Assembly: GCF_001698205.1 (NCBI RefSeq)
Contig: NZ_CP016591.1
Location: forward strand, 744,001 to 808,000
Length of the DNA: 64,000 nt
Direction of reading: 5' to 3'
DNA from: Tsuneonella dongtanensis
Lineage (GTDB): Bacteria > Pseudomonadota > Alphaproteobacteria > Sphingomonadales > Sphingomonadaceae
Shown here: positions 22,651 to 63,079 of the stretch, piece after piece
Numbering within the stretch: position 1 is the stretch's first letter
Layout: each line of letters begins with the position of its first letter
Position numbers and translations under genes: made by a program
Notes under the pieces: generated by a model
Databases searched by the model: none
What the model saw: the letters and a program-made list of their open reading frames with translations, nothing else
What the model was told of the DNA's origin: nothing

Positions 22651-23442
22651 ATGGCCTCGAAATCCCGCTTCATGTCCACGCCTGGCGAGCAGTCGCTCGG
22701 CCGGCTGACCCAGCGGATTGCGGACGAGATCGGCGAATCGATCGTAACCGGCAAGCTCGAGCCGGGCGATCGCCTGCCGGTCGAGGCCGATCTTGTCGCG
22801 AAGCACGGTGCAAGCCGCAGCGTCCTGCGCGAAGCGGTCAAGGTGCTCAACGCCAAGGGGCTGGTTACTGCCAAACCGCGCCGCGGGACCACGGTTACGC
22901 CGCAGTCGGAATGGAACGTGTTCGATCCCGATGTGCTGCGGTGGACCCTGGCCGGTCGCTTCTCGCTCGACCTGCTGATCCAGTTCACCCAGATCCGCAT
23001 CGGCATCGAGCCACAGGCCGCCGCACTCGCCTGCATCGCGGCGAGCGAGCGCGATATCGCCCGGATCGGCGAAGGCTATCGCCGCATGGTCGATGCGGAC
23101 AAGGGGCGCGACGACCCTCTCGCGGCGGATATCAGCTTCCACCTCGCGATCCTCGATGCCACGCACAACCTGTTCTTCGCGCGGCTGAAGCCGCTCGTCG
23201 AAACCGCGCTGCACTTCTCGATCCGCTACACCGATTCGATCGTGCGTGACGAAAGCGAGAAGCTGGGTGTCCACGAGGATGTCTTTCTCGCGATCGCGGC
23301 GCGGGACGCGGAGGCGGCGAGTGCGCACGCCCTCAAACTGCTGACCGATGCCCTGGAATTGATGCGGCAGGGCCAGGCGAGCGGATCAGCTCACCCGGGC
23401 AAACGCAAGGGCCAGGCCGCGACGCGCGCAGTCGCCCCCTGA
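22651..23442 (+). CDS. dgoR: GntR/FadR-family regulator of the galactonate cluster
   Basis: A 263-residue repressor-type protein. The N-terminal winged helix (about 10-80) contains LPVEADLVAKHGASRSVLRE and the wing GLVTAKPRRGTTV. The C-terminal FCD ligand domain (about 100-240) has metal/ligand residues in DISFHLAILDATHN and HEDVFLAI. Neighbouring dgoK and dgoA make control of galactonate catabolism by 2-keto-3-deoxygalactonate or galactonate likely. Its paralog at 58134 is about three-quarters identical by eye. Alignment of the two (MASKSRF with MPQNTRF) supports this ATG. Its last 57 bases overlap the end of dgoK on the other strand. Confidence 0.87.
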   Translation: MASKSRFMSTPGEQSLGRLTQRIADEIGESIVTGKLEPGDRLPVEADLVAKHGASRSVLREAVKVLNAKGLVTAKPRRGTTVTPQSEWNVFDPDVLRWTLAGRFSLDLLIQFTQIRIGIEPQAAALACIAASERDIARIGEGYRRMVDADKGRDDPLAADISFHLAILDATHNLFFARLKPLVETALHFSIRYTDSIVRDESEKLGVHEDVFLAIAARDAEAASAHALKLLTDALELMRQGQASGSAHPGKRKGQAATRAVAP

Positions 23443-24348
23443 CAGCGCGCGCGATGCGCGGCCGGCTAGCTCCAGCGCGCGGCCGTAGCTCGCTGCGAGT
23501 GCGTCGGAACAGATCAGATTGACCGGTGCGTCATCGGAGAACTGCGGCAGGGCGCCGGCGACATCCGCACCTACGATCAGCCCGCTGAGAAAGCTCGCGC
23601 CATCCTCTCGCGCCAGCGTCTTTTCGACCTGCCTGACCCTGCTCGCGAACAGGAGCCCGAGTAGGTTGTTGGCGCCGTGGCGCAGCGAAAGGCGGACGCC
23701 TTCGTCGAACGCCTTGCCCGGATGCGGCGGTGCGCTGTCCGGCGCGACGAGGACGGAATTCTTCGAGAGCGCCGCAAAGAGCTCGCCGCTGATCGCCGTG
23801 TGGAAGGACGCGAGGCGCCCATCCTCGACGCGGATCCACTTGTTGTGCGTACCGGGGAGGGCGAACAGTCCGTCCCGCATTCCCTCGATCGCGCAGCCTC
23901 CCGCGATCTGGGTCTCCTCACCCCGCATCACGTCGCGTTCACCGTAGGGATTGACGCAGCGCATGCCCGGAAGGATCGAAACGGTCCGACCCGCGTGTTC
24001 GAACCGGACCGCGCCGCGCCCCAGATCGGAGACCGGCAGCGGCGCACCGACGTACCCTGCCTCGCGCCAGCCGATATTGCCGCCGATCATGCCGCACAGC
24101 ATCGCCGGAACCGTCGGCCAGCCATCGGTGACGCGGTCGAATGCGGCGGCGCAGGCCTCCTGCCCGCCGCCGAGCGTGGCCACCCCGGCCCCCTCGCGCG
24201 CATCCAGCGCATTGCCCTCTTCGTCGCACAACCAGAACCGCGCGGCGGTCGTGCCCCAGTCGCCGGCGACGAACCGCGCTCCCTGCAGGCTTTCGGGCAT
24301 CCCGCCCTCTGTCACCCCGAGCGAAGTCTCACTCAATTCGAATGCCAT
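23386..24348 (-). CDS. dgoK: 2-dehydro-3-deoxygalactonokinase
   Basis: Phosphorylates 2-keto-3-deoxygalactonate at C6. The 320-residue protein has the ASKHA-type phosphate loop FVAGDWGTTAARFWL, LCGMIGGNIGWREAGY, LPGTHNKWI (substrate/ATP site), SFHTAISGELFAAL and LSGLIVGADVAGAL. ATG 24348 is chosen because the decayed paralog at 59812 also starts about 25 residues before FVAGDW; ATG 24300 is an alternative. It converges on and overlaps dgoR by 57 bases, and diverges from dgoA. Confidence 0.92.
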   Translation of the reverse strand: MAFELSETSLGVTEGGMPESLQGARFVAGDWGTTAARFWLCDEEGNALDAREGAGVATLGGGQEACAAAFDRVTDGWPTVPAMLCGMIGGNIGWREAGYVGAPLPVSDLGRGAVRFEHAGRTVSILPGMRCVNPYGERDVMRGEETQIAGGCAIEGMRDGLFALPGTHNKWIRVEDGRLASFHTAISGELFAALSKNSVLVAPDSAPPHPGKAFDEGVRLSLRHGANNLLGLLFASRVRQVEKTLAREDGASFLSGLIVGADVAGALPQFSDDAPVNLICSDALAASYGRALELAGRASRALSGGDCARRGLALAFARVS

Positions 24349-24436
24349 CACCCTGGTCCCGCCCCCAAGCGCCTTTGCGACAATCGACCCGGGCCCTGTA
24401 TCGAAAGGCACGCGACAATCGCCATTGCCATTCCCA

Positions 24437-24452
24437 AATAAAGCATATAAAT
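24437..24452. promoter_or_regulatory. AT-rich 16-bp box in the dgoK/dgoA divergent region
   Basis: AATAAAGCATATAAAT lies 41 bases before the dgoA start, in the dgoK/dgoA intergenic region. The identical 16-mer occurs at 61840-61855 between the GH43-like and GH5-like genes. In DNA this GC-rich an exact 16-base AT-rich match beside two divergent sugar operons suggests an operator, probably for the DgoR proteins. On the - strand it contains the -10-like TATGCT. Confidence 0.6.
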
Positions 24453-24477: not shown

Positions 24478-25104
24478 ATGCCCGACCTGCAGCAAACCCT
24501 TGAGAGCATGCCTGTCGTCGCGATTATCCGCGGCGTGCGTCCGGATGAGGCCGAGGGTGTGGCCGAGGCGATCCTGGGCGCAGGGATTGGCGCGATCGAA
24601 GTGCCTCTCAATTCCCCCGATCCTTTCGCCAGCATCGACAAGCTCGCCTCGCGATTCGGCGACCAGGCGATCATCGGTGCGGGAACGGTGCTTTCGGCCG
24701 ACGATGTGCGCCGACTTGCCGATGCAGGCGGCCGAATCGCTGTCGCACCCAACACGGACGCAGCCGTCATCGCCGCCTGCCTCTCCAGCGGGATCGAGCC
24801 GATGCCCGGTTTCGTGACGCCGACCGAAGCGTTCGCCGCCTATGCGGCAGGCGCGCGGTGGCTCAAGCTGTTTCCAGCGGGCACGCTCGGTCCAGCCTAT
24901 CTCAAGGCGATGAAGGCCGTGCTGCCCTGGGACGCCCGCGTGCTGGCGGTCGGCGGCGTCGGCGCCGCGAACCTCGCGGACTGGGAAGGGGCCGGCCTGG
25001 CGGGTTTCGGAATCGGCACGGACATTTACGCACCTGGCGATTCGCCCGACATGGTCGGGGCCAAGGCGAGAAGGCTGGCGGCTGCCGTGAGGGCAATCGA
25101 CTAG
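24478..25104 (+). CDS. dgoA: 2-dehydro-3-deoxy-6-phosphogalactonate aldolase
   Basis: Splits 2-keto-3-deoxy-6-phosphogalactonate into pyruvate and glyceraldehyde 3-phosphate. The 208-residue class I aldolase has the base Glu in GAIEVPLNSP near residue 40, IIGAGTVL, and the Schiff-base Lys in ARWLKLFPAGTLGP near 125. The N-terminal segment PVVAIIRGVRP and PLNSP favour the galactonate over the gluconate enzyme. ATG 24478 has GGAG upstream; an in-frame start seven codons earlier lacks one. First gene of a sugar operon with the symporter and dehydrogenase downstream. Confidence 0.9.
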   Translation: MPDLQQTLESMPVVAIIRGVRPDEAEGVAEAILGAGIGAIEVPLNSPDPFASIDKLASRFGDQAIIGAGTVLSADDVRRLADAGGRIAVAPNTDAAVIAACLSSGIEPMPGFVTPTEAFAAYAAGARWLKLFPAGTLGPAYLKAMKAVLPWDARVLAVGGVGAANLADWEGAGLAGFGIGTDIYAPGDSPDMVGAKARRLAAAVRAID

Positions 25105-25165: not shown

Positions 25166-26824
25166 ATGAATCTTACGACGCTCGACGTCACGGTCATCGT
25201 GATCTACGCGATCTTCATCTTCGGCCTGGCGCAGTACGTAAGCCGGGAAAAAGGCGGGAAGGCGAAGGACAGCTCGGACTATTTCCTGGCGTCCAAGAAC
25301 CTGCCGTGGTGGGCAATCGGCGCGTCGCTGATCGCGGCCAACATCTCTGCCGAGCAGATCGTCGGCATGTCCGGCTCTGGATACGCGATCGGGCTTGCGA
25401 TCGCCTCCTACGAATGGATGGCGGCGCTCACCCTGCTGATCGTCGGCAAGTACTTCCTGCCGATCTTCCTCAAGAACCACATCTACACGATGCCGCAGTT
25501 CCTCGAACAGCGGTACGGCACGACGATCCGCACGATCATGGCGGTATTCTGGCTCGCGCTCTACGTCTTCGTGAACCTGACCTCGATCGTCTGGCTCGGC
25601 TCGATCGCGGTGACCACGGTCGCGGGCGTCGATCAAGACGTCGCGCTTTGGGCGCTGGGCGGTTTCGCGCTGCTCTACCAGGTCTACGGCGGCCTCAAGG
25701 CGGTCGCGCTGACCGACATCGTGCAGGTGACGCTGCTGGTGCTGGGCGGGCTTCTCATCAGCTTCATCACCCTGAGCGAAATCGGCGGAGAGGCCGGCTT
25801 CATCGGCGGGTTCAGCCGCCTGACGACCGAGCTGCCGGGCCACTTCGACATGATCCTCAGCCCCGACAACCCGTTCTACAAGGACCTGCCGGGCCTTTCG
25901 GTGCTGATCGGCGGCATGTGGATCGCCAACCTCAGCTACTGGGGGTTCAACCAGTATATCATCCAGCGCGCCCTTGCGGCGAAGAGCCTGGCAGAAGCGC
26001 AGAAGGGCGTGGTCTTCGCGGCCTTCCTCAAGCTGCTGATGCCGGTGATCGTGGTCCTGCCGGGGATCGCAGCGGTCGTCCTCGCGCCTGGGCTCGCCAA
26101 GCCGGACCAGGCCTATCCGACGATGATGGGCCTGCTCCCGGCCGGTATCCTGGGCCTCGTGTTCGCGGCGCTGATGGCGGCGGTGGTCGCTTCGACCGCG
26201 TCCAAGATCAACTCGATCGCGACGATCTTCACGCTGGACCTCTACGCCAAGTACCGCGGCATCGGCAGCGTTGCCGAGGAAGGCGTGGCGGGCGAAGGCA
26301 ATGCACCGGGGGCGGCTTCTGTGGGTGCGCCGCAAGCTCCGCCCACCGGCGGGCTGGCCGCCAACGAACGGCACCTCGTGCTCGTCGGGCGCATCACCGC
26401 CGCGGTGGCGACCCTGCTCGCCCTGCTCACGGCGCGCCCGCTGCTGGGCAATTCGGACCAGGCGTTCCAGTTCATCCAGGAATTCTCGGGCTTCTTCACA
26501 CCGGGCATCACGGTCATCTTCCTCCTCGGCCTGTTCTGGAAGAAGGCCAGCGAAGCAGGCGCGATCGGGGCTGCGGTGGCTTCGGTGGTGCTAAGCTACC
26601 TGTTCAAGGTCCTTCTGCCCGAACTTCCCTTCATGGACCGCATGGGCATCGTCTTCCTCGCCTCGCTTGCCCTTGCGGTGGTGCTCTCGATCGTGTTCCC
26701 GGCAAGCGCCGGACGCGACCGCATCACGACCGACGGGATCAGCTATGCGACCACGAAGGGCTTCAACGTGGCGGCGTTGCTCGTCGTCCTGATCCTCGTT
26801 GCGCTTTACGCGACCTGGTGGTGA
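25166..26824 (+). CDS. Sodium:solute symporter, SSS/SGLT family
   Basis: A 552-residue transporter with about 14 membrane helices. It shows the SSS hallmarks DYFLASKNLPWWAIGASLIAA, ISAEQIVGMSGSGYA, AALMAAVVASTASKINSIATIFTLDLY and YWGFNQYIIQRALAAKS, close to the sugar branch (vSGLT-like). A Gly/Ala/Pro-rich loop at about 370-395 is a species-specific insert. Between dgoA and galactose dehydrogenase, it most likely imports galactose or a galactoside with sodium. GGGGGAG precedes the ATG. Confidence 0.9.
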   Translation: MNLTTLDVTVIVIYAIFIFGLAQYVSREKGGKAKDSSDYFLASKNLPWWAIGASLIAANISAEQIVGMSGSGYAIGLAIASYEWMAALTLLIVGKYFLPIFLKNHIYTMPQFLEQRYGTTIRTIMAVFWLALYVFVNLTSIVWLGSIAVTTVAGVDQDVALWALGGFALLYQVYGGLKAVALTDIVQVTLLVLGGLLISFITLSEIGGEAGFIGGFSRLTTELPGHFDMILSPDNPFYKDLPGLSVLIGGMWIANLSYWGFNQYIIQRALAAKSLAEAQKGVVFAAFLKLLMPVIVVLPGIAAVVLAPGLAKPDQAYPTMMGLLPAGILGLVFAALMAAVVASTASKINSIATIFTLDLYAKYRGIGSVAEEGVAGEGNAPGAASVGAPQAPPTGGLAANERHLVLVGRITAAVATLLALLTARPLLGNSDQAFQFIQEFSGFFTPGITVIFLLGLFWKKASEAGAIGAAVASVVLSYLFKVLLPELPFMDRMGIVFLASLALAVVLSIVFPASAGRDRITTDGISYATTKGFNVAALLVVLILVALYATWW

Positions 26825-26828
26825 TCAA

Positions 26829-27764
26829 GTGACCGGCCCCATCCGCATCGCCCTGGTCGGCTTCGGCAAAATAGCGCGCGACCAGCACGTCGCCGCGATC
26901 GCGGCGACCGAGGGGATCGAACTGGTCGCCGTCTGCTCCGAACACGGCGCGGCGCCGGAGGGAATCCCGCAATTCGCCAGCCTGGACGCAATGGCCGCCT
27001 CGGGCATAGCTGTCGACGCGACGTCCCACTGCAACACGCCCGCCGCGCGCTTCGCCACGGCGCGGCGCAGTCTCGAGCTTGGCTATGCGACCCTGCTCGA
27101 GAAGCCCCCGTTCGCCACGCTGAGCCAGTGCCGCGAGATCGAGGAACTGGCCGAGGCGCGCGGTCTCGTCCTGGCCACCAGCTGGCACTCGCAGCACAAT
27201 GCCGCGGTCGACGCGGCGAAGGCATGGCTTGCCGACAAGACCATCCGTAGGTTTCGCCTCGCGTGGATCGAAAGCGCGCGCAAGTGGCACCCGGGGCAGG
27301 AGTGGATCTGGCAGGCCGGCGGATTCGGGGTGTTCGATCCCGGCATCAACGGCTTCTCGGTGATGACGAAGATCATGCCCTTTCCCGTCCACGTCGCCGC
27401 GGCGCGGTTCGAGGTGCCGGGCAATTATCCCATGCCGATCGCCGCCGAACTCGACATCGCCGCCCCGGTGGACGGCTTCGATGGCAAGGCGGTGCTCGAT
27501 TTTCGCGGCGGCGACAGCGAGCAATGGGACATCGCGGTCGAATGCGACGAGGGGACGCTCGAACTGTTCTCGGGCGGCCGCAGGCTCTTGATCGACGGCG
27601 AGACCCGCGCCGACCACGGCAACGCCGAATACCGGGGCATCTATGCCGATTTCGTCGCGGCCGTTCGGGCCGGAACCAGCGCGGTCGACCTCGCGCCGCT
27701 GCGCTTCGTCGCCGATGCCTTCATGCTTGCCGAGCGTACGACCGTCGAGGACTACCAGCCCTAG
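26829..27764 (+). CDS. gal: D-galactose 1-dehydrogenase, Gfo/Idh/MocA family
   Basis: Oxidises D-galactose (often also L-arabinose or D-fucose) to the lactone with NAD(P). The 311-residue protein begins with the nucleotide motif IALVGFGKIARDQHVAAI, has the LLEKPPFATL signature (the EKP Lys is catalytic) and a C-terminal beta-sheet domain with WIWQAGGFGVFDPGINGFS. Start GTG 26829 lies four bases after the symporter stop, indicating one operon. It ends in a 4-base convergent overlap with the lactonase gene. Assignment to galactose rests on family and on dgoK/dgoA nearby. Confidence 0.85.
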   Translation: MTGPIRIALVGFGKIARDQHVAAIAATEGIELVAVCSEHGAAPEGIPQFASLDAMAASGIAVDATSHCNTPAARFATARRSLELGYATLLEKPPFATLSQCREIEELAEARGLVLATSWHSQHNAAVDAAKAWLADKTIRRFRLAWIESARKWHPGQEWIWQAGGFGVFDPGINGFSVMTKIMPFPVHVAAARFEVPGNYPMPIAAELDIAAPVDGFDGKAVLDFRGGDSEQWDIAVECDEGTLELFSGGRRLLIDGETRADHGNAEYRGIYADFVAAVRAGTSAVDLAPLRFVADAFMLAERTTVEDYQP

Positions 27765-28645
27765 CCCAACGATACGCGCATCTCGGGCAATCCGCGTGCG
27801 CCGGGATGCGCAAGGAACATGTCGCCGGCGTGGGGGTCTGCTTCCTCGGGGCTTCTCGCCAGGTCCGACCAGGCGCTGGTGATCGCAAGGACATCGAGAT
27901 CGGGCCCGCCGAATGCCGGACAGGTCGGTTGCAGTGCGGGCAGGGCTACATTCTGCGTCTCGCGGCCGGTCGCGGGGTCGAGGCAGATCACCCGGCTTCC
28001 ACCCCACAGCGCGACCCAGATGTTGCCCGCGGCATCGACACAGGCCCCGTCGGGCCACCCTTCCTCTGCGGTAAACTGCCGTACGACCCGATGGAACTCC
28101 GCTCGTTCACCATAGCGATAGGCGTTGAGCGTGCCGGTCGTGGTGTCGGTGTGGTACATGGTCGCACCGTCGGGGGACCAGCACAGCGCGTTGGTGATGG
28201 CGATGTTCTCGACCAGCGGCGTCAGCGACCTGTCGCGTTCGAGCCGCCACAGCGTGCCCAGGTGCGACCCACCCGCGGCTGCGGCGTCCTCGACCATGGT
28301 GCCAGCGACGAATCGGCCCTCGCGATCGACCCGCCCGTCGTTGAACCGCACGCCGGGGACCGCCTCGGGCTGCGCGAGCCATTCGAGCGCACCGCTGGCG
28401 ATTTCGTACCGGGCGAAGCCTTGCGAGAATGCGCCGACGATCACCCCTGCCTCTTCGGTCAGTGCAAGCGATCCGAGCCGGTGCGGCAATGCGTGCTGGT
28501 GGAGCGCGTGCTCCTTCCACTCCAGCCGGTAGAGCAGGCGGGCGTGGATGTCGGTCCAGATGAATTCCTGCGCCCGGTCGTCCCACACCACGCCTTCGCC
28601 AAGGCAATTGGCGACCGCGATCGGCTCTACGGTATGCTCAGACAT
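27761..28645 (-). CDS. SMP-30/gluconolactonase family lactonase (probable galactonolactonase)
   Basis: A 294-residue six-bladed propeller that hydrolyses aldonolactones. Metal ligands are visible: Glu in CLGEGVVWDD (about 16), Asn in VRFNDGRVD (about 102), and Asn/Asp in ITNALCWSPDGATMYHTDT. Next to the galactose dehydrogenase it should open D-galactono-lactone to galactonate, the second step of the oxidative route. It lies 38 bases downstream of pyruvate kinase on the same strand; a 14-bp palindrome (28660-28673) lies between them. Confidence 0.87.
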   Translation of the reverse strand: MSEHTVEPIAVANCLGEGVVWDDRAQEFIWTDIHARLLYRLEWKEHALHQHALPHRLGSLALTEEAGVIVGAFSQGFARYEIASGALEWLAQPEAVPGVRFNDGRVDREGRFVAGTMVEDAAAAGGSHLGTLWRLERDRSLTPLVENIAITNALCWSPDGATMYHTDTTTGTLNAYRYGERAEFHRVVRQFTAEEGWPDGACVDAAGNIWVALWGGSRVICLDPATGRETQNVALPALQPTCPAFGGPDLDVLAITSAWSDLARSPEEADPHAGDMFLAHPGARGLPEMRVSLG

Positions 28646-56930: not shown

Positions 56931-58085
56931 ATGCGCAAGCTCGTTATCGGTGCGGCCATGGCTCTGGCACTCGCAGCCTGCGACCAAGCGGCCACGCAGC
57001 CGGAGGGAACTACCGAGGAGGGAGCGATGACGGGCACGCCGTTCGAAAAATTGGCCGACGGACGCGAGGTAACCAAGTGGGATCTACGCGGGGCCGATGG
57101 GTCGGGCCCGATCATCATGGACCTCGGTGCGACGATTCTTTCGCTGCAGGCTCCCGACATGGCGGGCGAAATGGCCGACGTGACGTTCGGTTTCGACACT
57201 GCTGCGCCGTACCTTACCGACAGTCCCTATTTCGGTGCGGTGGTCGGCCGCTACGCGAACCGGATCAAGGAGGGCAAGTTCTCGCTCGACGGCAAGGACT
57301 ACACGCTCGCGATTAATAACGAACCCAACACACTTCACGGCGGCAAGGTCGGGTTCGACAAGCGCGTCTGGAAGGGCGAGCCCGTCACGACAGCCGATGG
57401 CAAGGGTGTGAAATTTACCCTCGTCAGCCCCGACGGCGAAGAAGGTTATCCGGGTGAAGTGACCGTCTCGACCACCTACGTCTGGACGGCCGATCACAAG
57501 CTGATCGTCGATTTCGACGCAACGACGACCGCGAACACCCCATTCAATATCGCCCAGCATTCCTACTGGAACCTCGCCGGAGCCAACACCGCCAAGACCG
57601 TGCTCGACCATACGCTGCAGATCAACGCGGACAAATATACCCCCGTGACGAAGAACCTGATCCCGACGGGCGAACTTCCGCCGGTGGAAGGTACGCCGTT
57701 CGATTTCCGGACCGCGAAGCCGATCGGGCGCGATATCGGCCAGTCGAACGAGCAACTGACGTTCGGCGGTGGTTTCGATCACAACTGGGTGCTGAACGGA
57801 TCGGGGATGCGGGTCGCGGCGGTGCTCGTCGATCCGACGTCGGGCCGCAGGATGACGGTTTCGACCGATCAGCCAGGGCTCCAGTTCTATTCGGGCAATT
57901 TTCTCGACGGGAAAGTAACCGGCAAGGGTGGCAATGCCTATCCCTACCGTTCGGCGGTGGCGCTGGAAACGCAATACTTCCCGGATTCGCCCAACCAGAC
58001 CGGTTTTCCCGATGCCACGCTTCGGCCGGGAAAGCCGTTCCACAGTCGGACGATCTACGCTTTCGATACTGTCGCTACGAACTGA
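56931..58085 (+). CDS. galM: Aldose 1-epimerase (galactose mutarotase), lipoprotein
   Basis: Interconverts alpha and beta anomers of galactose. The 384-residue protein starts with a lipobox signal (MALALAACDQ), so it acts in the periplasm, unlike most cytosolic GalM. Catalytic residues are visible: His in NEPNTLHGGKVGFDKRVW, His in NIAQHSYWNLAG and the general base Glu in AVALETQYFPDSPNQ. It is intact, with GGGAGAG before the ATG. It would condition galactose released outside for the symporter and for galactose dehydrogenase. Divergent from the sulfatase pseudogene. Confidence 0.92.
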   Translation: MRKLVIGAAMALALAACDQAATQPEGTTEEGAMTGTPFEKLADGREVTKWDLRGADGSGPIIMDLGATILSLQAPDMAGEMADVTFGFDTAAPYLTDSPYFGAVVGRYANRIKEGKFSLDGKDYTLAINNEPNTLHGGKVGFDKRVWKGEPVTTADGKGVKFTLVSPDGEEGYPGEVTVSTTYVWTADHKLIVDFDATTTANTPFNIAQHSYWNLAGANTAKTVLDHTLQINADKYTPVTKNLIPTGELPPVEGTPFDFRTAKPIGRDIGQSNEQLTFGGGFDHNWVLNGSGMRVAAVLVDPTSGRRMTVSTDQPGLQFYSGNFLDGKVTGKGGNAYPYRSAVALETQYFPDSPNQTGFPDATLRPGKPFHSRTIYAFDTVATN

Positions 58086-58133: not shown

Positions 58134-58928
58134 ATGCCGCAGAACACTCGCTTCGTGTCGGACCCGCCCGAGCAAACTCTCGGGCGGTTGACGCAACGCG
58201 TCACCGACGAGATCGGTGAAGCGATCGTCACCGGGAATCTCGCGCAGGGAGAGCTGCTTCCGGTCGAAGCGGATCGGGTCGCTCGGTACGGGGCGAGCAG
58301 GAGCGTTTTGCGCGAGGCGATCAAGGTGCTGAACGCGAAAGGGCTGGTGACCGCTAAGCCCCGTCGCGGGACCACCGTGACCAAGCAGTCATCCTGGAAC
58401 GTGTTCGATCCCGATGTCTTGCGATGGACCTTGGCGCGCAATTTTTCGCTCGAGCTGCTGACCCAGTTCACCGAGATCCGCATCGCGATCGAGCCGCACG
58501 CCTCTGCACTGGCATGCGACGCGGCGAGCGAAGAGGACATCGCGCGTATCGGTCAGGGTTTCGAACGCATGGTCGAGGCAGACCGCGGGCCCGATGATCC
58601 GCTTGCGGCGGACATCAGCTTCCACCTCGCGATTCTAGACGCCAGCCACAACATCTTCTTAGCTCGATTGAAGGCGCTGGTCGAGACCGCGCTGCATTTC
58701 TCGATCCGGTACACGGGTTCGATTGCACGAGACGAAAGCGAAAAACTGGGCATTCACGAGCAGGTCTATCGGGCGATCGAGGCACGCGACGCGCGGGCTG
58801 CACGGCACGCGGCACTCAAACTGCTGACGGATGCCCTGGACCTGATGAATCAGGGTGCGCCGCCGGCTTCAGAAAACGGCGCCGAACGCCCGCGCAAGGC
58901 CCCGGCGGGCGCAACCACCACCGGATAA
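58134..58928 (+). CDS. GntR/FadR-family regulator, paralog of dgoR
   Basis: A 264-residue paralog of the regulator at 22651. The winged helix has LPVEADRVARYGASRSVLRE and GLVTAKPRRGTTV; the FCD domain has DISFHLAILDASHN and FSIRYTGSIARDESEKLGIH. The reading frame is intact, in contrast to its partner dgoK2. Nearly all FCD metal/ligand residues are shared, so the two probably sense the same or a similar acid, while changes at the N-terminus and in the recognition-helix flank may alter operator choice. It overlaps the end of the dgoK2 pseudogene by 60 bases. Confidence 0.86.
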   Translation: MPQNTRFVSDPPEQTLGRLTQRVTDEIGEAIVTGNLAQGELLPVEADRVARYGASRSVLREAIKVLNAKGLVTAKPRRGTTVTKQSSWNVFDPDVLRWTLARNFSLELLTQFTEIRIAIEPHASALACDAASEEDIARIGQGFERMVEADRGPDDPLAADISFHLAILDASHNIFLARLKALVETALHFSIRYTGSIARDESEKLGIHEQVYRAIEARDARAARHAALKLLTDALDLMNQGAPPASENGAERPRKAPAGATTTG

Positions 58929-59812
58929 CTGGATCGACTGGAATCCTGCCAGTTCGAGTGCACGACCGAAGCTGCGTGAAAGGCTTTCGAACAGATCAGC
59001 CGGATTGGCTCGATGCTTTTTTCGAGAGCCGGCAAGGCTCCCGCGACGTCGGCGCCCACGATGAGCCCGCTCAGGAAACTGGCGGCATCGCGAACCGGCA
59101 CCGACCCGGACGCGTTGCGTGTACGCGCGGCGAACAAGATACCCATTAGATTGCCCCCGCCGTGCTGCAGGGCGAGGCGGACGCCCTCGTCGAATGCTTC
59201 GCCGGGATGCGGCGGATCGCTCTCCGGCGGAATGAGGATCGAATTTTCTTGCAGGGCCGCGAAGAGTTCCCCGCTCATGGCGGTATGGAACCCGGCGAGG
59301 ATATCTTCGCTGACCTTGACCCACTTGTTGTGCGTTTCCGGGAGCGCGAAAACCCGTCGCAAACTTCGCCTGGATTGCAAGCCCCGACGATCTGGGTTTC
59401 CTCCCCGCGCATCAAGTCGAGTTCGCCGAAAGGATTGGTACAGCGAACTCCAGGCATGATCGCGACTTCACATCCGGCGTGATCGAACCGAATTGCCCGC
59501 GCCCCGATCTCCGCCAGCGGCAACGGAGCGTCTGCATAGCCCGCCTCGTGCCAACCCATGTTGCTTCCGATCATGCCGCACAAAACGACCGATACACTGG
59601 GCCACCCCTCGGTCACGCGATCGAACGCGCTACCGAACGACCTTTCGGCTGCCAGCGCTGCAACCCCCCGGGCCTTCGCGCTTTTCGATTTCGTTGCCCT
59701 GTGCGTCGCACAACCAGAATCGCGCCGCAGTTGTCCTCCAGTCGCCAGCGACAAAGGCAGCTTCCATCGACGGAGCGTCGACCCGCTCCTCTCGCTTGTT
59801 CGAAACTTCCAT
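58869..59812 (-). pseudogene. dgoK: 2-dehydro-3-deoxygalactonokinase paralog with three frameshifts
   Basis: Begins FVAGDWRTTAARFWLCD after a ~20-residue lead, like the intact dgoK. One extra G in the G6 run at about 59663-59668 shifts the frame; the second block reads VLCGMIGSNMGWHEAGYADA to RGEETQIVGAC. A one-base loss near 59350 shifts to the third block, ALPETHNKWVKVSEDILAGF to LSGLIVGADVAGALPAL. A third shift near 58965 leads to FGRALELAGF and the stop at 58869. Each block aligns with the intact copy, so the gene was once functional. Confidence 0.88.
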
Positions 59813-59917: not shown

Positions 59918-61834
59918 TCAATGCCCAGTCGCCGCGTTATGCTGTGGCGTGGCTTCCAGCGGCAACGTTCTGATCGACATCGCATCGCCGATCTCGATCG
60001 GAACCAGCGCGAAATGCATGCGCCACGGCGCAGTCGGATCGTTGCCGAACATCGTGTACCAATACCGGCCTTCGGTGTCGCGGAACGGCGTTCCGTGCCC
60101 CCCGTGCGGCGCACCCAGGCGGCGGCGCGTATACGGTCCGGCGATCGACTGGGACGCGGCATACATCATGTCGTAGGTGCCATGCGTGCGCAGCGGTCCG
60201 TGCCATTCGGCGCCCGTCACGAAATAGGTGTCGCCTACCTTGATGATCCCGTTGCCTTCGTAGCCGATATGATCGCCAGCCGTGTCCACCAACTGTGTCG
60301 GCTTGTCGACAAATCCGCTGCGATCAGCGTTCAGCTTGGCCAGCCGTCCACCGCCCCAAAGGAAATAGAGGTCCTTACCCTCGGGGTAGAGGAAACCGTC
60401 GATTCCCTTGACGAGGTAACTGCTGCCGGTGTTCTCGTACGGGCCCTGCGCCTTGCCACTGGTGGAGCGGAACAGCCAGGTCTTGCCGCCGACGCCGCGC
60501 TCCATGATCGAAAAGGCAAGGTAGAAGGTACTCTCCGCCGGAACCCAGCGAATTTCAGGGGCCCAGAGTTCGGCGATATTGCCGAACTCGTAACTCAATC
60601 CTGTCCACTGCCAGGCAAAACCCAGATCCGTCCAGTTCTCGAGATCGGTCGAACGCCAGACCTTTATGCCGCCGTCGGGAAACTGGTAACCGTACCCGTC
60701 CAGAGTACCGACGAGATAATAGGCGCCGTCGCCACCCACGGTAACGGACGGGTCTCGCATCGTCTTGCTGGTGACCAGAGCATGCCGCCCGGCAACCGCG
60801 CTGTCTTCTGTCAGGATCCTGCCCGCCTGACGCAGCCGGCCGTCGGGCACGGCCTCGAGCGGGACGATGCCGATCCGGTGGCAGAAAAAGGCGAAGTCGT
60901 CCTCGCACACCGGATCGTAACTTGCGGCAAGTGTACCGTCGGGCATGCTCGCGACCGAACTCTCACCGGCATGAGGAACTGCAAGCATTCTGCGGGAGAA
61001 TGGCCCGTAAGGTGTCTTTCCTTCCGCGAGGAACAGGTCGGTCGTCGCCGTGCGCAGCCGACCCGTCTGTTCGGATGACCCGAGCCAGTATTTCCCACCA
61101 TGCTTGACCATGAAGGCGCCATCGGTGCCGATTCGTGTGCGAACGGGCCAGTCCTTGCCTGCCGGGAAGGTCTCGGCAAAGTTTGCCGCGTCCGGCTTCA
61201 GAAAGCGCGGCGCCTCGGCCAACTTCGCGAAACCGGGTGCAAGCCTGGCGATCCATCCACCGCCCCACAGCAGATAGCCTAACCCGTCGTCATCGACGAA
61301 CAGGGAAGGAGACGGGGCATCGGGCGCAAGGCAGGCGCTGGCGGCCATATCGGCGCCCGGACGCGCGACATCTCCCGTCGCAATCCGCGCGCATCCCTGG
61401 TCGTCTGCGAAAGCGATGAACAGCTTATCAGCCACGATGGTGAGATGAGGAGCGGTCCAGCGAACAGCCGGGTTGGTGGCATCGAGGTCGGGACCGATCA
61501 CCCGAGGCGCAAACCGCTCCCACTGGTTTTCGCCCTTGCGCCCCCAGAACTGCAGACCGTGGCGCGGCGTCGAATCGAGTGGGGTTCCGGTGACGAACAA
61601 TCGGCCGTCGGACGCGTAGGCGATCGAGGCTTGTGAAAGCGGTCGCTCGACGAACTCCGCCACTACCGGTTTTGCACCTGCCACCGGCATGACGGTGGCG
61701 TTCTTGTCCATCGAAGGATGGTCGGCAAACACACTGTCTGCGGGTGTTTTCTGCGCGATCGCCGGCACGGAGTGAACGACCGAAAGCAGTCCCGCCGCAA
61801 GCGCTGTCGATCGAAATATATGCGGCATTGTCAT
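59918..61834 (-). CDS. GH43-like glycoside hydrolase with two five-bladed propellers
   Basis: A 638-residue exported protein (signal peptide to PAIAQ). Two halves each look like a five-bladed propeller. The second half carries the GH43 landmarks: the base Asp in TMRDPSVTVGGDGAYYLVGT, LWAPEIRWVPAESTFYLAFS, and the acid Glu in IGYEGNGIIKVGDTYFVTGA, plus PHGGHGTPFRDTEGRYWY. The first half is weaker and may bind carbohydrate. Family GH43 or a related clan (GH117-like) is likely; the substrate is unknown. The start is ATG 61834 or 61828. Intact, unlike its divergent neighbours. Confidence 0.8.
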   Translation of the reverse strand: MTMPHIFRSTALAAGLLSVVHSVPAIAQKTPADSVFADHPSMDKNATVMPVAGAKPVVAEFVERPLSQASIAYASDGRLFVTGTPLDSTPRHGLQFWGRKGENQWERFAPRVIGPDLDATNPAVRWTAPHLTIVADKLFIAFADDQGCARIATGDVARPGADMAASACLAPDAPSPSLFVDDDGLGYLLWGGGWIARLAPGFAKLAEAPRFLKPDAANFAETFPAGKDWPVRTRIGTDGAFMVKHGGKYWLGSSEQTGRLRTATTDLFLAEGKTPYGPFSRRMLAVPHAGESSVASMPDGTLAASYDPVCEDDFAFFCHRIGIVPLEAVPDGRLRQAGRILTEDSAVAGRHALVTSKTMRDPSVTVGGDGAYYLVGTLDGYGYQFPDGGIKVWRSTDLENWTDLGFAWQWTGLSYEFGNIAELWAPEIRWVPAESTFYLAFSIMERGVGGKTWLFRSTSGKAQGPYENTGSSYLVKGIDGFLYPEGKDLYFLWGGGRLAKLNADRSGFVDKPTQLVDTAGDHIGYEGNGIIKVGDTYFVTGAEWHGPLRTHGTYDMMYAASQSIAGPYTRRRLGAPHGGHGTPFRDTEGRYWYTMFGNDPTAPWRMHFALVPIEIGDAMSIRTLPLEATPQHNAATGH

Positions 61835-61839
61835 ATCGC

Positions 61840-61855
61840 AATAAAGCATATAAAT
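61840..61855. promoter_or_regulatory. Second copy of the 16-bp AT-rich box
   Basis: AATAAAGCATATAAAT, identical to 24437-24452, six bases before the GH43-like start. It overlaps a promoter reading on the - strand: TTGACT (61867-61872), 16-base spacer, TATGCT (61845-61850). The transcript would start within a few bases of the ATG. A regulator bound to the box would block this promoter. Confidence 0.6.
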
Positions 61856-61966: not shown

Positions 61967-63079
61967 ATGATTGCCCGCCTCCTGCTTGTCTGTTCGCTCT
62001 TCTTGGCCGGATTGGCCAATCCGGCGAATGCGCGCGACCGATGGACCGAGCAGAAGGCTAACGAATGGTACGCGACCCAACCCTGGTTGGTGGGGGCGAA
62101 TTACGTGCCATCGAGCGCCATAAATCAACTCGAGATGTGGCAGGACGAGACTTGGGACCCCAAGCGCATTCACGAGGAATTCGGCTGAGCGCGAGCAATA
62201 GGCATGAACACGATGCGAGTGTTCCTGCACGACCAGTTGTGGACCGCCGATCCGGTCGGGTACCGCAAACGCATCGACGAATTCCTGACGATCGCGGAGC
62301 GACACGAGATCCGGCCGATGTTCGTGCTGTTCGACAGCTGCTGGGATCCCGATCCGAAGCTAGGACCGCAGCATCCGCCGATCCCCGGCGTGCATAATTC
62401 GGGCTGGGTGCAGGGGCCTGGCGTACCAGGATTGCGAGACAAGTCCCGGTATCCCGCATACCGCGAATATGTCCAAGGCGTGGTGAAGGCTTTCGGCAAG
62501 GACGACCGCGTACTTGCGTGGGACATTTGGAACGAGCCCGATAATTTTGCTCTCCAGTACAAGGGTCAGGAAGGCAAGATCGCCCTGGTCGAGGGAATGC
62601 TGCCACAGGCTTTCGAATGGGCTCGCGCCGCCAATCCGAGCCAGCCGATCACATCGGGTGTGTGGCTGGGGCCGGATTGGTCGCCGGCGGCCAAGAAGCT
62701 CAACAAAACTCAAACGATACAGCTTGAGATGTCGGACGTGATCTCATTTCACGATTACGGTTGGCCAGAGCAGTTCGAAGCGCGGATTGCGCAGTTGAGG
62801 CCATACGGGCGACCGTTGCTGTGCACGGAGTACATGGCGCGCGGCAACGGCTCCACATTCGACACAATCCTGCCGATCGGAAAACGCGAAAAGGTGGCCA
62901 TGATGAATTGGGGCCTCGTCGACGGGCGGACCCAGACGCGCCTGCCGTGGGACAGTTGGGACAAACCGTACACGCAAAAAGAGCCGACGATCTGGTTTCA
63001 TGAGATTTTCCACACCGATGGTCGACCGTACCGGAAAGCGGAAACGGATCTTTTCACCACTTTGACTAAAGGGAACTGA
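61967..63079 (+). pseudogene. Clan-A (GH5-like) glycosidase interrupted by an in-frame TGA
   Basis: The gene starts at ATG 61967 with GGGAG upstream and a signal peptide (LLLVCSLFLAGLANPANA). After residue 73 (WDPKRIHEEFG) a TGA at 62186-62188 replaces an expected Trp (EFGWARAIGMNTMRVF in relatives); the frame then continues unbroken for 297 codons. The catalytic pair is present: acid/base Glu in WDIWNEPDN and nucleophile Glu in LLCTEYMARG. One G-to-A change would explain the stop. An ATG at 62204 could restart translation, but without the signal peptide and first strand. Confidence 0.85.

Follow-up and report, generated by a model that had tools for sequence, protein, structure and literature searches.

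Escherichia coli DgoR is a GntR/FadR regulator of the D-galactonate pathway that carries an Asp-His-His metal site, and its dgo operator IR1 (CTAAATTGTAGTACAACAATAT) is described as an inverted repeat with arms TTGT/ACAA and a 3-nt centre that overlaps the promoter (PMC12288454). The ligands of the metal are D146, H150 and H195; the abstract of the corresponding report is worded as if D-galactonate promoted binding, while a passage in the same report has D-galactonate with metal weakening the complex, and this second reading is followed here (PMC7674646). For the FadR subfamily as a whole, the operator consensus is given as TKGT-N3-ACMA (PMC4494728). In Halomonas, the passages on a DgoR regulon obtained by genomic reconstruction list the dgo enzymes, a COG3386 lactonase (DgoL) and an SSS-family sodium symporter (PMC5507952). 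We found no description in the open-access literature of the operator motif presented below for alphaproteobacterial DgoR-like regulators.

We analysed a window of 64,000 nucleotides (bases 744001-808000 of a single contig of 3,009,495 bp), in which a 16-bp box, AATAAAGCATATAAAT, is present at 24437-24452 and again, letter for letter, at 61840-61855, both on the plus strand, exactly as a previous sequence-only reading had claimed. We consider it about 80% probable, from sequence comparison, that the box is an operator of DgoR1/DgoR2-like GntR/FadR (FCD) regulators that overlaps the -10 regions of dgoA and a GH5-like gene (predicted 15-bp operator cores at 24438-24452 and 61841-61855). More broadly, it is very probably a binding site for a family of repressors that sense sugar acids, of the kind that stands before galactose and polysaccharide genes in related bacteria.

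Site 1 was claimed to lie between dgoK and dgoA, and profile searches upheld both names: dgoK1 (23386-24348, minus strand) encodes a 2-keto-3-deoxygalactonokinase (Pfam DGOK, 1.4e-74) and dgoA (24478-25104, plus strand) a 2-dehydro-3-deoxy-6-phosphogalactonate aldolase (NCBIfam NF006600, 254.5 bits for a cut-off of 207). The two genes diverge around the box, and dgoK1 converges with the gene for DgoR1 (22672-23442, plus strand; Pfam GntR and FCD; the start was chosen, the longest ORF running from 22627). Downstream of dgoA follow an SSF sodium:solute symporter (25166-26824, plus strand; Pfam SSF), a Gfo/Idh/MocA oxidoreductase (26799-27764, plus strand) and an SMP-30/gluconolactonase-like lactonase (27761-28645, minus strand). 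Five other genomes carry relatives of the symporter (70-77% identity) close to DgoR homologues. Genes similar to dgoA (E <= 1e-20) were present in just one of the ten other genomes of the genus, at 47% identity; the dgo1 locus is therefore accessory, and its description as core, set against an island at site 2, was not confirmed.

The gene labels on which the placement of site 2 depended, GH43-like and GH5-like, also proved correct. The order is an aldose 1-epimerase (56931-58085, plus strand) upstream of dgoR2, then DgoR2 itself (58134-58928, plus strand; start chosen, longest ORF from 58104), a frameshifted dgoK2 pseudogene converging with dgoR2 (58850-59812 with approximate ends, minus strand), a GH43 glycosidase (59918-61834, minus strand; start at 61828 or 61834, longest ORF from 61894), the box, and the GH5-like glycosidase (61967-63079, plus strand). 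The dgoK2 remnant aligns with dgoK1 at 57-65% identity, broken into three pieces whose frames are shifted (59761-58970). The GH5 gene has an in-frame TGA at 62186-62188, a point where coding continues in a 64% identical relative, so that the TGA reflects either gene decay or a sequence error. These two breaks suggest that site 2 may belong to a stretch in decay and make its use today doubtful. The island reaches past the window to about 861 kb and contains sulfatase relatives, further GH43 proteins, an alpha-galactosidase, TonB receptors, symporters and dehydratases, together with two more GntR/FCD regulators that are paralogues of DgoR1 and DgoR2 (at about 850824-851561 and 860656-861357 of the contig). 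It also holds a second SMP-30 lactonase (L056 13548-14429), 68% identical to the one at 27761-28645, which makes another gene pair common to the dgo locus and the island. A TonB-receptor gene in the island (L055 2963-4306; contig 810963-812306) codes for 447 aa with a Plug domain, is possibly truncated, and has a predicted operator ahead of it.

DgoR1 and DgoR2 are 73-74% identical, and both combine a GntR winged helix with an FCD domain. With DgoR1 as the query, the closest solved relative was E. coli DgoR (7C7E, E 1e-29; the better of two PDB sequences at E <= 1e-10). None of the NCBIfam regulator models reached its cut-off for either protein, the best of them, LldR, giving 75 bits for DgoR1 and 85.5 for DgoR2 out of 311. 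D153, H157 and H201 align with D146, H150 and H195 of E. coli DgoR and were invariant in all nine aligned homologues; a sugar acid would fit as the effector, since the Asp-His-His metal site is conserved. Homologues of DgoR1 (E <= 1e-45) were detected in 29 of the 249 genomes searched, its own included, and the named homologues of highest identity among the matches listed (51-57%) were on Novosphingobium plasmids. A profile scan of genome contigs with the DgoR1/DgoR2 alignment recovered five loci (26-41% identical).

The motif was learned by expectation-maximisation, under free and palindromic models, from non-coding DNA within 1.5 kb of 28 DgoR homologues in other genomes, the window being left out. 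The free model converged on ATTTATctGATntAT and the palindromic model on ATTtATCnGATaAAT, the four best end points of the latter being one motif, dyad-symmetric, 15 bp long and ATTTAT-N3-ATAAAT-like. The runner-up of the free model was GC-rich and coding-like (likelihood 106.7 versus 108.9). When 28 pieces from arbitrary loci in those genomes served as a control, every motif that emerged was GC-rich and had a lower likelihood (48 versus 95 at the DgoR loci for the palindromic model, 72 versus 108 for the free model). Only 14 of the 28 training loci carried a site at >=17. The training loci are partly dependent, genus g5 giving two of the 28, g60 four, g58 three, g43 two and g86 two, and two pairs exceed 85% DNA identity.

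Both boxes scored 21.7 with the free matrix (minus strand, ATTTATATGCTTTAT), a score surpassed at 2 of the 315,972 positions in 158 kb on both strands; the other leading sites (849723, 810703, 827421 and 858092) were all in the island. We scrambled the matrices by permuting columns and swapping letters: of 2000 scrambled free matrices, 5 did as well as the true one at site 1, 4 did so at site 2 and none at both, and the palindromic model was less specific (15 and 26 of 2000, with 6 at both). In 340 background stretches, each of 135 bp, scores peaked at 10.7. Across the island (800-865 kb) 10 positions scored >=15, strands counted apart, whereas 300 scrambled matrices averaged 1.2 and reached 5 at most; no position at >=15 was found in 89 kb of flank with dgo1 left out, and no site in another 100 kb of the genome. 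The island site at 811887 falls inside a gene, genes having been called with a heuristic based on GC by codon position and not with a gene finder. A plain consensus allowing 3 mismatches was not useful genome-wide (50 sites, versus 43 for the reversed control). Directly upstream of dgoR1 and dgoR2 there was no site (best scores -1.9 and 1.9), and the promoter between the epimerase and dgoR2 scored just 8.9. A palindrome, TCATACTTGTATGA, stands at contig positions 832051-832064 (L109) before an island gene for a TonB receptor of 1008 aa; it is the only exact match in the genome to the pattern TCATACNNGTATGA, and it is probably a variant site and not a separate motif.

The dyad of the box itself is imperfect: it departs from a perfect palindrome at 3 positions, with one arm full and the other, the left one, about half symmetric. 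The boxes are without GT or AC and do not fit the canonical TKGT-N3-ACMA consensus; a site scan listed no such site in the window, and direct reading found none at the boxes. The earlier proposal of a shared FadR-type operator linking polysaccharide and galactose genes was partly supported, through the motif comparison; the box is not of the canonical GT-N3-AC kind. BioR concerns biotin, not sugar. It offers a precedent from the FadR subfamily: its AT-type operator, TTATMKATAA, departs from the usual consensus and has a centre of 2 nt instead of the 3 nt seen here (PMC4494728). Compared with the FadR consensus as stated there, the AT-rich dyad and the 3-nt centre are alike, whereas the G and C of the GT/AC core become A and T in the boxes (PMC4494728). 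The likeness to E. coli covers the type of regulator, its metal site, and an inverted repeat with a 3-nt centre overlapping a promoter; the arms differ, being TTAT/ATAA-like here instead of TTGT/ACAA, and, unlike in the E. coli system as described, sites are here also predicted at glycosidase, TonB-receptor and symporter promoters (PMC12288454). The Halomonas regulon likewise brings together dgo enzymes, a lactonase and a sodium symporter, but it belongs to the Gammaproteobacteria and the passages describing it mention no polysaccharide island (PMC5507952). Classical TTGT-N3-ACAA sites do occur in the island, at 845390 (L056 17390) before a TonB-receptor gene and at 857820 by the gene of an aldehyde dehydrogenase, both near the two other GntR/FCD paralogues. 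These sites suggest that those two paralogues may prefer the classical core; some of the island sites predicted with the learned motif could also be theirs.

We then compared loci in relatives. Twelve 18-kb DgoR loci contained 18 sites at >=17, ten of them outside the training stretches and eight inside, while twelve equal stretches from the same genomes contained 2 (215 kb each). General AT-richness was rejected as the cause, given these 2 sites in 215 kb of arbitrary loci and none in 100 kb of the own genome. As a held-out set we used seven alphaproteobacterial plasmid loci (four from Novosphingobium and one each from Polymorphobacter, Niveispirillum and Asticcacaulis), part of eight plasmid loci taken from 45 matching records and no more than about 79% identical in DNA to the training loci among the matches listed. 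All seven carried at least one site at >=17 (12 sites in total; mean 0.6 and maximum 5 for 300 scrambled matrices), and in four of them such a site stood just before the regulator match, a fifth scoring 16.5 there. The Pseudoalteromonas locus L158 (GC 0.39) was omitted from the permutation count because its composition differs; it had at least 5 sites at >=20, as expected of AT-rich DNA. The annotated neighbours at one plasmid locus included a 2-dehydro-3-deoxy-6-phosphogalactonate aldolase and a sugar kinase, and at another GH43, an epimerase and a TonB receptor. Relatives of GH5 were found in 2 of 13 DgoR loci (L100, 64%; L105, 60%), in both cases after an epimerase gene and behind a site. 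The two GH43 relatives of 62-63% identity had no promoter site at 17, and the most distant one (52-54%, L058) had two.

The TATAAAT within the box (24446-24452 and 61849-61855) is -10-like and points to the plus-strand genes dgoA and GH5, whose starts follow at distances of 25 nt and 111 nt. On this reading the second box would cover the -10 of GH5 and not, as suggested earlier, that of the GH43 promoter; GH43, whose start is 6 or 12 nt from the other side of the box, is probably affected as well. In relatives, TATAAAT was directed toward the symporter or dgoK gene in 7 of the 7 promoters inspected before such a gene, although at least two copies (L104 12406 and L105 5025) were not directed toward the nearest gene. 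The same orientation would be expected if the two sites shared no more than a core promoter, TTGYCA-N15-TATAAA, read by the same sigma factor and reached by convergence with no specific regulator involved. At both sites a candidate -35 element does stand 15 nt before TATAAA (TTGCCA at 24425-24430 and TTGTCA at 61828-61833, plus strand), and the likeness of the sites extends upstream only: 26 of 32 positions match between 24421-24452 and 61824-61855, and in the alignment the similarity is not continued downstream of the boxes. This explanation is nonetheless unlikely. A 15-nt spacer is short, the motif is dyad-symmetric, unlike a -10 element, and TATAAT was about as dense at DgoR loci as elsewhere (22 versus 19), whereas the motif counted 18 versus 2 (TATAAAT, 12 versus 2). 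An operator and a -10 element can also overlap, so that the core promoter and the operator reading are partly one story.

For the operator reading, we infer binding, repression, effector, promoter positions and the pairing of regulators with sites. A dimer of DgoR1, DgoR2 or both would cover the -10 region at the predicted 15-bp operator and would block RNA polymerase at the divergent dgoA/dgoK and GH5/GH43 promoters. The dimer would come off when it binds a sugar acid derived from galactose, either D-galactonate or an intermediate further down the pathway, and polysaccharide breakdown would then be co-induced with the catabolism of the galactose it yields. One signal could switch both gene sets on because the predicted operator stands before both. 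For the wider proposal, that two paralogous regulators read one operator as a single regulon over promoters 37-90 kb apart and that an AT/AT core replaced the GT/AC core in an alphaproteobacterial GntR/FadR clade, we regard the odds as evenly balanced; if it is true, a galactose-derived sugar acid from either pathway would switch on the galactonate pathway together with sulfatases, glycosidases and import across the outer membrane. The regulators themselves are of a familiar type, and the departure from the GT/AC core is the point of specialist interest. The practical outcome is a concrete and transferable candidate operator motif for DgoR-like regulators in alphaproteobacteria, from which one can predict the TonB receptors, sulfatases, glycosidases and symporters whose expression would be coupled to galactose/galactonate catabolism.

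The box might instead be a relic of descent, 16 bp left over from the duplication of a dgoR-dgoK-promoter module, with site 2 now functionless. DgoR2 and dgoK2 are indeed paralogous to DgoR1 and dgoK1, with order and orientation alike in the two pairs, the 16 nt upstream of the box match at 10 of 16 positions, and the frameshifts of dgoK2 and the TGA of GH5 would suit a locus out of use. However, the paralogues have diverged to 73-74% (DgoR) and 57-65% (dgoK) identity, and 16 of 16 neutral bases would hardly have survived over that divergence, which makes this account very improbable; descent and function are, moreover, not exclusive.

The whole genome of 3,009,495 bp contains 2 exact copies of AATAAAGCATATAAAT, in one strand orientation, and none at 1-2 mismatches; many copies in unrelated places, which had been named beforehand as evidence against a regulatory role, were thus not what we found. 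At 3 mismatches there were 6 sites genome-wide, versus 1 for the reversed pattern. In the window, no third copy was detected at <=3 mismatches, and 100 shuffles gave none either. We judged the supply of AT-rich 16-mers to be a better null than shuffling of the window. In the 158 kb around the box 235 distinct 16-mers recur, the box among them, so that a 16-nt repeat alone would mean little; the recurring 16-mers have 50-94% GC among the matches listed (60 of 235). What sets the box apart is its AT-richness: just 342 16-mer positions in the 158 kb have <=26% GC, and no other AT-rich repeat with copies separated by more than 200 bp was found at a length of 13, 14, 15 or 16 nt. The earlier argument that chance identity is unlikely in such DNA therefore failed for repeated 16-mers in general, which are common, and held for the AT-rich repeat, which is unique. 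The possibility that two AT-rich promoter stretches became identical by chance, for which the 235 recurring 16-mers and the shared composition of such promoters might speak, was rejected as strongly disfavoured, given the 342 AT-rich positions with no other AT-rich repeat of 13-16 nt, the lack of further genome copies at 0-2 mismatches and the independent match of the boxes to the DgoR motif.

A search for the 16-mer itself in 40 genomes, the own genome included, is not informative: at <=2 mismatches 12 of the 40 had a match; besides the own genome these were one genome from its family and ten from its order, and the ten other genomes of the genus had none. Finally, the short palindromes GGACAAGTCC, AGACAAGTCT and GACATGTC, which were not seen at the two boxes of the window, stand about 10-20 nt upstream of the predicted operator in several relatives (L105, L097 and L102), where they are possibly a -35 element or the site of a second factor.
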